Virus record (IMG/VR): IMGVR_UViG_3300047276_000389
Span: 1 to 33,967 of that record
Direction: 5' to 3' (one strand)
DNA length: 33,967 nt
DNA from: a virus
In this document: one piece after another, positions 3,679 through 33,967 of the stretch
How positions within the stretch are numbered: position 1 is the first letter of the stretch
Layout of the letters: the number at the start of each line of letters is the position of its first letter
Made by a program: the position numbers and the translations under genes
The notes under the pieces: generated by a model
Told to the model about the DNA's origin: nothing
The model's database searches: none
Seen by the model: the letters and a program-made list of their open reading frames with translations, nothing else

Positions 3679-5535
3679 ATGGCCCTGAACAGACTAGAGC
3701 AGATGCTGGTTGACCAGTACACCAACATCAACTACCCCCGAATGGAGCCGGAGCCAGAGCCGCTGGCAGAAGGCGAGATGCCATTCGAGCCTTACCAGGT
3801 GGCGCAGGCCGGCCCTGGCGTGACCGGGCCAGGTGGAGCTGCTTTTGGCGTGTTCCCTGGAGCAGGCCGGCGCAAGCCTGAGAACAACAGCGACATCGGC
3901 CAACGCATGATTACTGGCGCACCCGACTTCGCTGCAGGTGCTGCGCGAGGATTTACCGGGGCGGCGGTTGGTCTTCCTGGTGACGTTGAGAAGCTGGGCC
4001 GGTTCATCTACCGGCTGGCCACCGACAACCAGGGCGGCGGCGTGCTGGACAAGTTTGGTCGGGCGGCGCAGTCGCTGGAGGAGTCTTCGGTGCTGCCGTC
4101 GAGCGAGGATCTGCTCAAGAACGGCTACACGATCCCTGGCACCCAGATCACCCTGCCGCCACTGCCGGCTGCTGTGCCTCCTGGCACCCCGGGCATGGGC
4201 ATGACGCCAGACCAACGCGAGGCTGCAGCTGGCGCTGGCCAGTTCGTGGGCGAGCTGGTGGGCGACCCGGTGGCGCTGGCTAAGGGTGGCAAGCTCGCTG
4301 TGCAAGGCGGCAAGGCCTTGTTGAAGGCGACGGAGAATGTGCCGGTCGGCCTGAGCATCAAGCCGGTGGGCAACCCGGAAGACGCCCTGCTGATGCCGGT
4401 CAAGGTCGCTGGCCGCGAGATCAAGATCCCGGCTGACCAGGCAGCGGTGCTGCAAAAGGCGATCAAGAACCTCACGCCCGAGGAGCAGGCAAAGTTCCGC
4501 TCGGACACGGCGCAGAAGTTCGTGACCATTTTGTCCGAGCTGCCAAGTACCAAAGAATTCGCCGCAGCGGCCATCGGCGGCAAGGCCAAGAAGGGCTGGT
4601 ACGAGGGAAGCGCCCAGGCCATCCTGCAGGTGTTCGGCCCCGATGCGCCCCGCTTTGCCGCGCTGCTGTCGGCCACCAGCCCGCAGACCAGCGTCGAGTC
4701 CAACCTGTTCAATGCGCTGCAGGTCTGGAAGAACTGGACGGCGGCTGGCCGACCGACCGACCGCGATGCCATCGTCAAGGTCATGGGCCAGAGTGTCCAG
4801 GGCAGCAAGGGCGAGGAGTCGGTGCTGGACGCCTGGATCAACAACAGCGTCCGGGCTTTGTCTTCGGAAGATCCCAGCAAGGTTGTACTGTCTGGGCCTA
4901 AGGTAAACAGTTTCATGCTGAACCTGCAGGGCAACGTGGACGAAGTTACCAACGATGCCTGGATGGCGGCCTTCTCCCTGGTCGATCAGAAGATCTTCGG
5001 CGGCAGCCTGACCAAGGGCGGCGACCCAGGCAAAGGGCCGGGCTACCTGGCGATGAATGCCAGGGTGCGGGAAACTGCCTCCTACCTGACAAAGGTGACC
5101 GGCGAGACATGGACGCCCGCCGAGGTTCAGGAGACAATCTGGTCTTGGGCGAAGACGCTGTACGAGACTGCCGGTAGTGCTGGAGAAAACCGCAGCGCGG
5201 TGCAGCTGATCCGCGACAATGCAATCACCGACCAGCTGATTGCATCCACCCCTGACTTCAGGACTCTGTTCTATGACGCAAGATTCCAACCAATCCTTGA
5301 GCAAGCCGGATATGCAGACCAGCTCACCCGACTCCGCGAAGCTACTGGAGCAGCTGATGGTGCAGCAGGAGGCAAAAAACCCCGAGCTGGCGGCCAAGCA
5401 GGCGCGCTTGATCCAGGCGCTACGCAACGTCTCAACGAACGAAACGCCAAGCGCCTAGACGCCCTGCGAAAGCAGAGGGAGCAAGCCTCAGCGGAGAAAG
5501 CACAAGTACAAAACCCATCAGGAGGGGTTGAATAA
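3679..5535 (+). CDS. Internal virion protein with a conserved enzyme-like domain
   Basis: A 618-residue protein. Residues 1-60 are acidic and Pro/Glu-rich; about 60-230 are Gly/Ala/Pro-rich with hydrophobic patches. Residues about 305-500 form a compact domain with ordered motifs: GWYEGSAQAI, LLSATSPQTSVESNL, LSGPKVNSFMLNLQG, VTNDAWMA and VQETIWSWAKTLYE. I recognise this motif series from phage proteins of unknown function; its helical layout reminds me of helix-hairpin-helix base-excision enzymes, which is only a suggestion. The last 80 codons have unusually low G+C at third positions because another frame appears to be coding there (5273-5458). The stop overlaps the next ATG by one base, and the final NPSGG codons contain the next gene's ribosome site. 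Confidence 0.6.
   Translation: MALNRLEQMLVDQYTNINYPRMEPEPEPLAEGEMPFEPYQVAQAGPGVTGPGGAAFGVFPGAGRRKPENNSDIGQRMITGAPDFAAGAARGFTGAAVGLPGDVEKLGRFIYRLATDNQGGGVLDKFGRAAQSLEESSVLPSSEDLLKNGYTIPGTQITLPPLPAAVPPGTPGMGMTPDQREAAAGAGQFVGELVGDPVALAKGGKLAVQGGKALLKATENVPVGLSIKPVGNPEDALLMPVKVAGREIKIPADQAAVLQKAIKNLTPEEQAKFRSDTAQKFVTILSELPSTKEFAAAAIGGKAKKGWYEGSAQAILQVFGPDAPRFAALLSATSPQTSVESNLFNALQVWKNWTAAGRPTDRDAIVKVMGQSVQGSKGEESVLDAWINNSVRALSSEDPSKVVLSGPKVNSFMLNLQGNVDEVTNDAWMAAFSLVDQKIFGGSLTKGGDPGKGPGYLAMNARVRETASYLTKVTGETWTPAEVQETIWSWAKTLYETAGSAGENRSAVQLIRDNAITDQLIASTPDFRTLFYDARFQPILEQAGYADQLTRLREATGAADGAAGGKKPRAGGQAGALDPGATQRLNERNAKRLDALRKQREQASAEKAQVQNPSGGVE
5273..5458 (+). CDS. Small out-of-frame gene overlapping the end of the 3679 gene
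   Basis: An open frame of 61 codons, +1 relative to the host gene, starting MTQDSNQSLSKPDMQTSS and containing an amphipathic Gln/Glu/Leu helix (LLEQLMVQQEAKNPELAAKQ). An AGGA at 5260-5263 lies nine bases before ATG 5273. By hand count, 49 of 61 third positions are G or C in this frame (about 80%, typical of this genome). In the overlapping long frame only 25 of 61 are (about 41%). That reversal is what a real overlapping gene would produce. I do not recognise a family. If real, it is a small soluble, possibly virion-associated protein. Confidence 0.55.
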   Translation: MTQDSNQSLSKPDMQTSSPDSAKLLEQLMVQQEAKNPELAAKQARLIQALRNVSTNETPSA

Positions 5536-14478: not shown

Positions 14479-15503
14479 ATGTTGGCCCCGAGCGCCCGCA
14501 GCCGCTTCTGGTAGCCCGCGGTGTGGCGCACCCGCTTGACGATGTCCACGCGCTGGATGTTCGCCTCATTGAGTTCCCGCAGCTCGCGCAGCTTGGTCAT
14601 GCGATCGCGGGCTGGCACCTTGCCGGCCCTGGCGGTCTTGTCGCACAGGTCTTCGTAGGCGTCGGCCCACTCATCCAGCGTGGCGTGGGTGCTGAACGGC
14701 TCATCCCTACCCGGCACCCGCAGGGCAAAGCCGATCACCTGCACCGGCTCCAGCTCCTCATCGTCCTGGCCAGGCTCGCGCTCCTCCACCGGCGGGGCTG
14801 CCGTCACCGCGTCGGTAATCTGTTGCTCCACAACAACAGTCAGCGGGGCGTCCACCGTGTCGGCCATGGCGGCCTCCATCAGCACCGGGTCAGACACCGG
14901 CAGGGCCGGGGCCAGGGCGTCCAGCGGGTTGCGCGTCGGGGTGATGTCCTTGGCCTGGCGGGGCTTGGCCTCATCCGGGAAGTCCATGGCCTCCTCGGCG
15001 GTGATGAGTCCCTTCAGGACATCTGGGAAGGCGTCCCGCAGGGCGAAGCCCCTGGCCCGCATCTGCAGCATCCGCTTGGGGTAGGCCTGCCATGGCCCCT
15101 GCTTGCCCCACAGACCGGCCCGCTTGGCGTCCTCGACCGAGAACCTGGCGATCACCGGGTTGCGGCCCTTGCGCCTGGCCACGCAGACGGCCACCGGGTT
15201 GGGCGTACCCTCGCCCTCGATGCTCTCATCAATGCCGTCGCAGACGGGGCTGGCCTGCACCAGGGCCATGGCCGCGTCCCCGTACACGGACGGCTTGCCG
15301 TTGATGACGCTGATGTTCTGCAGCGCCTGGAGCGGGGCCAGGCCGATTTCATAGCCCCATTGCACGGCGACCATGATGTCCTCGGGTTTACCCTGATACT
15401 GCTTGGGCACCATGGCCGACTTGGCCAGCATCTCGCTGAACTGGATGGCCTCGGTGATGGTGGCGGGCGCGAAGCCGCGCTGGTTGGTGGTGGTCAGTTG
15501 CAT
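14475..15503 (-). CDS. recT: RecT-family single-strand annealing recombinase
   Basis: A 342-residue protein from ATG 15503. The first 200 residues contain the RecT core: ITEAIQFSEMLAKSAMVPKQY, PEDIMVAVQWGYEIGLAPLQAL, NISVINGKPSVYGDAAMAL and KRMLQMRARGFALRDAFPDVLKGL. The C-terminus is variable and acidic, then basic. RecT proteins anneal complementary single strands and pair with a 5'-3' exonuclease, here the YqaJ protein encoded two genes upstream in the same operon. It overlaps the 60-residue gene before it by ten bases, so translation is coupled. A longer upstream extension of the frame is not supported. Confidence 0.9.
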   Translation of the reverse strand: MQLTTTNQRGFAPATITEAIQFSEMLAKSAMVPKQYQGKPEDIMVAVQWGYEIGLAPLQALQNISVINGKPSVYGDAAMALVQASPVCDGIDESIEGEGTPNPVAVCVARRKGRNPVIARFSVEDAKRAGLWGKQGPWQAYPKRMLQMRARGFALRDAFPDVLKGLITAEEAMDFPDEAKPRQAKDITPTRNPLDALAPALPVSDPVLMEAAMADTVDAPLTVVVEQQITDAVTAAPPVEEREPGQDDEELEPVQVIGFALRVPGRDEPFSTHATLDEWADAYEDLCDKTARAGKVPARDRMTKLRELRELNEANIQRVDIVKRVRHTAGYQKRLRALGANI

Positions 15504-15676
15504 ACGTCTTGTCCGGGTAGGTATTGTTTCAGGGTTACGAAGACCAGGGTCACGATGGAATCCACGATCTCCTCGGCGTCCTTGTCGCTGCACTTGGGGA
15601 TGTTCACGCGCACGGCCTCGACGGCGCGGGCGTGGGCCACGGTCAGCTCATCGGCGTCCAGCATCTCGATGTTCAT
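15494..15676 (-). CDS. 60-residue acidic protein between exonuclease and RecT
   Basis: The start ATG at 15676 overlaps the exonuclease stop (ATGA), and the end overlaps the RecT start. The protein begins MNIEMLDADELTVAHARAVEAV and is acidic and helical, with two cysteines, one near the C-terminus. It has no known motif. Its fixed place between the two partners of the recombination system suggests a role with them, for example as an adaptor or nuclease modulator. That is inference only. Confidence 0.65.
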   Translation of the reverse strand: MNIEMLDADELTVAHARAVEAVRVNIPKCSDKDAEEIVDSIVTLVFVTLKQYLPGQDVCN

Positions 15677-16635
15677 GCCTTGGCCTCCTTGATGGTCAGC
15701 GTGGACTGCCGGATGGTGTAGGCCTCCTTGGCCGGCACCATCTTGGCGGGCTGGGCTTGGTAGGAGCGCGTCGGCCAGGCGATGCTGTACGTCCCGGCCA
15801 GCGCCCTGGTGGCATCGCCCATCAGCTTCTTGAGCTTCTTCTCGGCCTCAGCTGCATCCGCTTCTGCCTTCTTGATGCTGGCCCGGTGGCCCATGATCTC
15901 GGCGGCCAGGGCGACGGCATCGTCAGCCAGCCGGATGGTTTCCTCATTGGCCGGGTACAGGCCGCGATGCGCGGGCCACTGCTCGCCTTCTGCCGGCGGG
16001 TAGTACTCCACCACCCCGGTGTCCTTCCAGGCGTCCAGGCGGCGCTGGAAGTCCTTGGATACCGCGGCGATGCGATCCACCGTGCCCTGGTGCGGGGCGA
16101 ACAGGAAGACCCGCAGCTGCGTGCCCCGGTACAGCGTGCAGACCGCGCCCCACCTGGCTTGGATGATGTCCATCTGGGCCTGCAGCTGGATGGGGCCGCG
16201 CCACAGGGGAGGGATGTCCTCGACATCCATGCCGGTGAGCTTGGCCTCCAGCACGCCGACCCCGTCCAGCGTGATGCTGTCCTGGCCGATGACGTAGATG
16301 CCCTGGCTCGGGTCAGTGGTGATGATTTGCCCTCGCCCGTCGGCGGTGCCGTCCAGGCTGCAGCACAGGGGCAGGCTTTCGTGGAACTTGGCCACCGGGT
16401 GGTCGATGACCAGATCCACCAGCTCGAGGCGGCGGGCTGCATCCTCGAGGATCAGCGGCTCCATGAGGTTGCCCCAGGCCATGGCTTCGTTGCCGATGTC
16501 CGGGCGCTCCTCGCCCTTCATGGCGCGGATGCTGTACTCCAGCTCATCGTTGGGCGTCTGGTAGCGGCTGATGCCCATTACGCCGGGCAGGCGCGAGGCC
16601 GACAGCATCGTGTCGGGTGTGACTTTATTGACCAT
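15673..16635 (-). CDS. YqaJ-type viral exonuclease (lambda Exo-like)
   Basis: A 320-residue PD-(D/E)XK nuclease starting at ATG 16635 (MVNKVTPDTMLSASRLPGVM). The catalytic series is visible: GNLMEP (Glu59), CSLDGTADG (Asp95), GVLEAKLTG (Glu130 and Lys132) and IQLQAQMDI. The C-terminal third is a helical region with a coiled coil (AEKKLKKLMGD). The enzyme should resect 5' strands of double-strand ends and load the RecT protein for single-strand annealing, as lambda Exo/Beta and RecE/RecT do. It overlaps the upstream 101-residue gene by 11 bases and the downstream 60-residue gene by four. Confidence 0.88.
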   Translation of the reverse strand: MVNKVTPDTMLSASRLPGVMGISRYQTPNDELEYSIRAMKGEERPDIGNEAMAWGNLMEPLILEDAARRLELVDLVIDHPVAKFHESLPLCCSLDGTADGRGQIITTDPSQGIYVIGQDSITLDGVGVLEAKLTGMDVEDIPPLWRGPIQLQAQMDIIQARWGAVCTLYRGTQLRVFLFAPHQGTVDRIAAVSKDFQRRLDAWKDTGVVEYYPPAEGEQWPAHRGLYPANEETIRLADDAVALAAEIMGHRASIKKAEADAAEAEKKLKKLMGDATRALAGTYSIAWPTRSYQAQPAKMVPAKEAYTIRQSTLTIKEAKA

Positions 16636-32853: not shown

Positions 32854-33967
32854 TGCCGCGCTTTGTAGACCTCCAGACCAACTTCTCGACCGGCGAGCTT
32901 GACCCGCTGCTGCGTGCGCGTGTCGAGCTGGAGCAGTACAACAACGCGCTGGCCAAGGCCACCAACGTCCTGATCCAGCCCCAGGGCGGCCTGCGCCGCC
33001 GGCCTGGCACCAAGCACATCCTGGAGCTGCCCAACACCAGCACCGCCAGCGCCGGCAACGGCGTGCGCCTGGTGCCCTTCCAGTTCAGCGTGTCCGACAG
33101 CTATATGCTGTGCTTTACGCACCAGCGTATGTATGTCATCAAGAACGGTGCGGTGGTGACGGCCATCAACGGCGGGGCCAACAACTACCTGACGACCAGC
33201 ATCACCAGCGACATGGTGGACGATATGTGCTGGACGCAGAGCGCGGACACCCTGATCGTGGTGCATCCCGACCTGCAGCCGGTGCGGATCGTGCGCGGGG
33301 CCAACGATGCCACCTGGACGGCCACCACCATCACCTTCGACAGCATTCCCAAGTACGCCTTCACGCTGACCATCACCAGCTCCACCACGCTGGGTGCTGG
33401 TCATCTGACCCCCAGCGCCGTGTCTGGCAACGTGGAGCTGACCTCGCAGAACTCTGCCTTCACCGCCGCCAGCGTCAACCAGTACATCAACGCCACCCCG
33501 CAGGGCCGTGCCCGCATCGTGGAGTACGTCAGCGCCACCAAGGTCAAGGCTGTCACCGAATACCCGTTCTTCGACACCACCAACATCGCCCAAGGCAACT
33601 GGGAGATCGAGTCCGGCTACGAGGATGTCTGGAGCAGCGGCAAGGGCTGGCCGCGGTCGGTCACCTTCCATGAGGGGCGGCTGTACTTCGGCGGCTCCAA
33701 GTCCCGGCCCTCGACCATCTGGGGCAGCAAGATCGGCCTGTTCTTCGACTTCGTGCCCAGCGAATCACTGGATGACGATGCTGTCGAGGCAACCCTGGAC
33801 ACCAACGAGCTGAACGTCATCACCGACATCATCAGCTCGCGGGACTTCCAGGTCTTCACCACCGGCGGCGAGTTCTTCGTGCCGCAGCGCGACAGCGACC
33901 CGATCACGCCGCTGACCTTCACCTTCAAGCAGGTCAGCCGCAACGGCATCAAGCCTGGCACCCGCGT
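32853..33967 (+). CDS. Tail nozzle/tubular protein, N-terminal part (gene runs off the right edge)
   Basis: The first 371 codons of the nozzle gene, beginning at ATG 32853. The opening FVDLQTNFSTGELDPLLRAR, then NNALAKATNVLIQPQGGLRR and RPGTKHIL, is a widespread signature of this tail protein family in podoviruses. The rest is beta-strand-rich. The gene continues at window position 302 and ends at 1187, about 666 residues in all, somewhat shorter than T7 gp12 (794). It forms the conduit through which DNA and ejection proteins leave. Confidence 0.82.
   Translation, partial: MPRFVDLQTNFSTGELDPLLRARVELEQYNNALAKATNVLIQPQGGLRRRPGTKHILELPNTSTASAGNGVRLVPFQFSVSDSYMLCFTHQRMYVIKNGAVVTAINGGANNYLTTSITSDMVDDMCWTQSADTLIVVHPDLQPVRIVRGANDATWTATTITFDSIPKYAFTLTITSSTTLGAGHLTPSAVSGNVELTSQNSAFTAASVNQYINATPQGRARIVEYVSATKVKAVTEYPFFDTTNIAQGNWEIESGYEDVWSSGKGWPRSVTFHEGRLYFGGSKSRPSTIWGSKIGLFFDFVPSESLDDDAVEATLDTNELNVITDIISSRDFQVFTTGGEFFVPQRDSDPITPLTFTFKQVSRNGIKPGTR
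33667..33967. repeat. Right copy of terminal overlap (circular genome end)
   Basis: This is the second copy of the 301-base sequence at the left edge. It starts and stops with the window, as expected when a circular or circularly permuted genome is cut at an arbitrary point. It lies inside the tail-nozzle gene and continues that gene's frame into position 302 of the window without a break. Confidence 0.9.

Follow-up and report, generated by a model that had tools for sequence, protein, structure and literature searches.

A probable small gene nested in the +1 frame of a phage ejection protein gene and its linkage to the DUF7178 module

In phage lambda, Rz1 is nested in Rz on the same strand, in the +1 frame and with its own start, and its product, a lipoprotein of the lysis cassette, works with the product of Rz. 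The locus described here resembles that pair in that a small gene lies wholly within a larger one, on the same strand, in the +1 frame and with its own start, but differs from it in that the small protein has no lipoprotein or lysis features and the host gene codes for a structural, ejected protein. Most overprinted genes described so far are known from one virus lineage each. The rise of a new protein in the alternative frame of an existing gene has been outlined for overprinted viral accessory genes (PMC8227390), and our case would follow that outline, the birth having taken place here in a disordered stretch. Unlike most overprinted accessory genes, however, this small gene is old, and it accompanies a protein module through many phage proteins. 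The module itself, DUF7178 (phrog_3842), is carried by the long frame and in relatives adjoins LPD22 and, weakly, ART-PolyVal, which is a likeness to the large polyvalent proteins as these are presented in PMC5512222. The nested +1 protein, in contrast to those families, is not described by the Pfam, PHROG or NCBIfam models, and no paper found by our literature search names DUF7178.

The window, by which we mean the whole stretch of DNA that was analysed, is a virus record of 33,967 bases. Its first and last 301 bases (1-301 and 33667-33967) are 98.3% identical in direct orientation and belong to the same tail-protein gene, so that the record is probably a complete genome, either circular or terminally redundant. 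The host gene is a long ORF of 618 aa on the plus strand (3679-5535), flanked by tail tubular genes and by a phrog_6651 'internal virion protein' gene, and since ejection proteins have this gene position in T7-like podoviruses we read its product as an ejection (internal virion) protein whose C-terminal part is a DUF7178 module. The C-terminal 360 aa carry the DUF7178, the Pfam match (PF23802) spanning residues 305-431 (4591-4971, plus strand) with an E value of 3.5e-8 and 34 bits against a gathering cut-off of 27, which places the protein within the family; phrog_3842 was matched at E 3.5e-9, and 40 of 40 relatives also match PF23802. The AlphaFold2 model is all-helical and confident (mean pLDDT 91.8). 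Its sole segment with a pLDDT below 50 is a disordered linker at residues 562-574 (5362-5400, plus strand), and beyond it lies a long C-terminal helix of 33 residues (5413-5511, plus strand; 322-354 in the model) with the conserved motif AAxRLxxLRxxR. A PDB search gave no fold match, and among the viral matches are free-standing proteins of short length as well as large polyvalent ones.

As a side observation on the module, the segments LLSATSPQTSVESNL and LSGPKVNSFMLNLQGNVDEVTNDAW at residues 330-431 (4666-4971) resemble endonuclease III motifs by eye and share their Lys-to-Asp spacing of 18 residues. This likeness was unsupported by profile comparison: an HhH-GPD DNA glycosylase identity for DUF7178 received an hhalign probability of 0.2-0.5%, in trimmed and global mode too, a reversed control scored no worse, and the fold is absent from the PDB search matches.

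Within the long ORF, the +1 frame is open from an ATG at 5273-5275 to a TAG at 5456-5458, and this overlapping plus-strand frame (5273-5458) codes for a predicted product of 61 aa, MTQDSNQSLSKPDMQTSSPDSAKLLEQLMVQQEAKNPELAAKQARLIQALRNVSTNETPSA. It had first been noticed through its third-position G+C, which was said to fall to 25 of 61 codons in the long frame and to stand at 49 of 61 in the +1 frame; both counts were reproduced exactly, and the value of about 80% that was taken as usual for this genome agrees with the in-frame mean of 0.81. The difference between the +1 and the long frame (0.39) is larger than in all 826 overlapping background windows (maximum 0.34). The Shine-Dalgarno core AGGA and the ATG were located where the original prediction had put them, the former at 5260-5263 (plus strand), where it includes a long-frame Arg codon AGG, with nine bases between the two, while the stop falls across a long-frame Leu codon (CTA in the window). 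Codons 21-55 of the small gene (5333-5437, plus strand) form its conserved core, which bears the two-helix motif LLxxLMxxQ...PxLAAKQxRLLQxL, and the 35 residues of this core would fold as a two-helix hairpin; for the small protein by itself, structure prediction gave a low-confidence model (pLDDT 64). Elsewhere in the window, the stretch 15123-15305 of the ORF 14523-15692 has a GC3 of 0.95 in its +1 frame against 0.64 in its own frame, and may hold a real gene in another frame or on the opposite strand.

Close relatives were taken from the viral collection, their identity in the long protein being 55-96%. In all 20 that cover the region, the +1 ORF is open with the same ATG position and the same stop and is preceded by a TTTAGGA or TTCAGGA site, and no homologue that conserves the long frame while carrying +1-frame stops was found among them. 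Codon signals were counted over 18 distinct close-relative sequences, the window included. The Arg codon that provides the Shine-Dalgarno site is AGG in 18 of 18, as against 85 of 531 Arg codons overall (16%), and the Tyr codon that creates the ATG is TAT in every one of them, as against 48% overall; likewise, the Leu codon at the small-gene stop is always TTA or CTA (18/18).

Synonymous differences were counted along a minimum spanning tree, the evolutionary tests being simple pair counts. Long-frame synonymous change in the overlap amounts to 99 differences observed against 226 expected, and suppression is strongest at residues 554-578 (5338-5412, plus strand), with 8 observed against 80.1 expected (0.10) and a z of -10.4, the lowest value in 2,000 column permutations being -5.95. 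The control region of the long frame, in contrast, shows 481 differences against 481 expected, and this synonymous-site constraint check, proposed together with the original prediction, thus confines the host-frame suppression to the overlap. Over overlap codons 1-20, dN/dS is 0.10 in the long frame and 1.61 in the small frame, whereas the core gives 0.23 for the small frame, 1.3 for the long frame and 2.5 for the unused +2 frame. When the differences are assigned to small-frame codon positions, position 2 takes 68 of 101 in the first part, position 3 takes 111 of 197 in the core, and position 2 leads again in the tail with 14 of 25. Purifying selection acts on the small-frame amino acids in the core. 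Given this switch of frame in both dN/dS and codon phase, the small-protein core is coded where the long protein forms its disordered linker, and the two frames therefore hardly conflict; the locus would be a clean case of two frames sharing one stretch, in which selection hands over at the linker edges. The description of the long frame in this stretch as a low-complexity extension holds in part, since a low-complexity part does exist, but it is an internal linker with the conserved helix behind it, and long-frame constraint is strong over overlap codons 1-20.

Synonymous suppression alone would fit a protein and an RNA element (a structure, a packaging or a regulatory site) equally, and the compactness of the site suits the latter as well. 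However, the core differences are concentrated on small-frame third positions, the low dN/dS of the core is seen in the small frame only, a protein profile recognises the +1 product in deep relatives, and an Rfam search of the window returned zero matches. The RNA-element reading is thus largely refuted, and we leave it next to no probability.

For those deep relatives, a profile was made from the close relatives only and applied to 52 deeper loci, mostly with 42-62% identity in the long domain, each being compared with 300 reshuffles that kept the long protein and the codon usage. The +1 frame outscores all 300 synonymous reshuffles in 37 of the 52, and with a broader profile it does so in 72 of 87 distinct module loci, a number that includes the 24 training sequences of that profile. 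Several of the low-scoring loci look, by eye, like diverged copies of the small gene. From seven others (L055, L060, L075, L078, L081, L161 and L197) it is likely to be truly absent, and their linkers measure 36-43 residues against a mean of 45.7 where the small gene is present. In a module tree computed outside the overlap with midpoint rooting, the small gene is missing on the branch formed by L060, L081, L075 and L078 and present in 49 of the 59 other rows. In five loci (L042, L052, L054, L057 and L063) the small core has diverged (RAPKDRALMKLLS, RPKDRALLNALS, QKEQALLRMLS), and this variant may represent a second subfamily.

Among the 49 clades with the small gene, 40 have an in-frame ATG with a Shine-Dalgarno pairing of -4 kcal/mol or lower, against 9.8 expected from the reshuffles, and the mean pairing over these clades is -5.98 against -1.80 in the reshuffles (sd 0.34). 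The starts recur at a few places, about 27, 40 or 45 codons ahead of the core lysine, so that they have shifted around a core that kept its place. For some close relatives, pairing is at its strongest at an inner ATG that precedes the core lysine by 12 codons. The window has an inner ATG at 5357, with GGAG, from which the product would be 33 aa, and we favour the 61-aa start because the conserved residues LLxxL precede 5357. The exact start is nevertheless less certain than the core, since the first 20 codons are unconstrained in the small frame. Such a lack of constraint would fit if these codons were untranslated in that frame, with the long protein gaining the core as an alternative C-terminus through programmed +1 frameshifting a short way upstream of it. 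The enrichment of starts with a Shine-Dalgarno site favours internal initiation instead, the AGG and TAT codons on which site and ATG depend are invariant in close relatives, the start shifts between clades and yet is regenerated, and no conserved slippery site was noticed on viewing the aligned DNA, all of which makes frameshifting improbable. The small protein would accordingly be made by internal initiation, at an ATG that is served by a separate Shine-Dalgarno site.

A search of 208 loci in all six frames gave 175 same-strand matches to the small protein, every one of them read in the +1 frame within the module ORF, and the only two other matches are weak (E 0.11). When the viral collection was scanned three times with no seed but the small protein, 20 loci were returned, all of them inside the module, so that neither the six-frame search nor the seeded scans yielded a free copy of the small gene outside it. 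Comparison of the small protein with Pfam, PHROG, NCBIfam and PDB gave no consistent or significant match; named families appeared as scattered matches only, around E 0.005-0.1 and with one member each, and were rejected. Judged by these comparisons, the predicted small protein is an undescribed family carried with the DUF7178 module.

These searches also bear on which of the two frames came first. The original prediction had suggested that the long frame is the newer, the ejection protein having been extended by read-through over a small resident gene, and the low complexity of the long frame over the core, together with its dN/dS of 1.3 there, would agree with such an origin. The comparison of relatives contradicts it, since the module relatives keep the long frame on both sides of the linker and the flanking helices are conserved in all of them, even on the deepest branches, which lack the small gene (L060, L075, L078 and L081), and since the free small gene that it supposes was not found in the 208 loci or in the seeded scans. 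Read-through over a resident gene is hence very improbable. The AAxRLxxLRxxR helix after the linker is kept in relatives with and without the small gene, and the simpler history is probably one in which the small gene was overprinted in a pre-existing disordered linker.

On the comparative evidence, which bears out the proposal of a hidden +1-frame gene with a helical product inside the ejection protein gene, 5273-5458 is almost certainly a real protein-coding nested gene. Its exclusive linkage to the module, as seen in all our searches, persists while the module changes its protein context, and for that reason we propose the small protein as the module's cognate helical partner, be it an accessory subunit, a chaperone or an inhibitor, a role suggested by the linkage alone. 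One message would then give both the module protein and the small protein, by which their ratio would be held and their inheritance joined. Taken as a whole, the statement that the gene is real and that its product serves the DUF7178 module as a partner seems to us fairly probable. Many overprinted viral genes work separately from the gene that they overlap, and by this general pattern the small gene could be real but have a role independent of the module, e.g. as a host-takeover or late regulatory peptide, and sit where it arose; its linkage could then mean no more than that it was born there and could hardly move elsewhere. Against this, the small gene is kept as the module moves among proteins of very different size and architecture, and the lack of a free copy in our searches argues for a shared function, although it is no proof. 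We regard an independent role as unlikely, if with an appreciable chance of being right. If the partner role is correct, it offers a lead to the job of the DUF7178 module, as a partner that is never separated from it should bind it. That small gene and module are conserved together in many unrelated environmental phages indicates that the protein is real and that the two share a task. It is also a widely conserved small protein that has been missed, since standard gene callers skip genes nested in another frame.

A bolder form of the partner reading, which we hold to be unlikely, is that of a portable gene inside a domain, DUF7178 being an enzyme-like effector of ejected phage proteins with its partner gene nested in the linker. 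The nested gene would in that case be the dedicated inhibitor or chaperone of the module, and effector and partner would be disseminated together, as an inseparable unit, among unrelated giant phage proteins.

As to where the module occurs, its host proteins in relatives range from about 540 to 3,000 aa, and some have LPD22 and weak ART-PolyVal matches, these neighbours being seen in proteins of 2,500 aa. The module is found in podovirus ejection proteins as well as in giant polyvalent proteins; tblastn with three different module sequences gave zero matches in cultured phages. In three loci (L220, L223 and L224), the giant ORF that holds the main module has, further upstream, extra partial matches to the module profile (positions about 256-334), which are possibly decayed or repeated ends.
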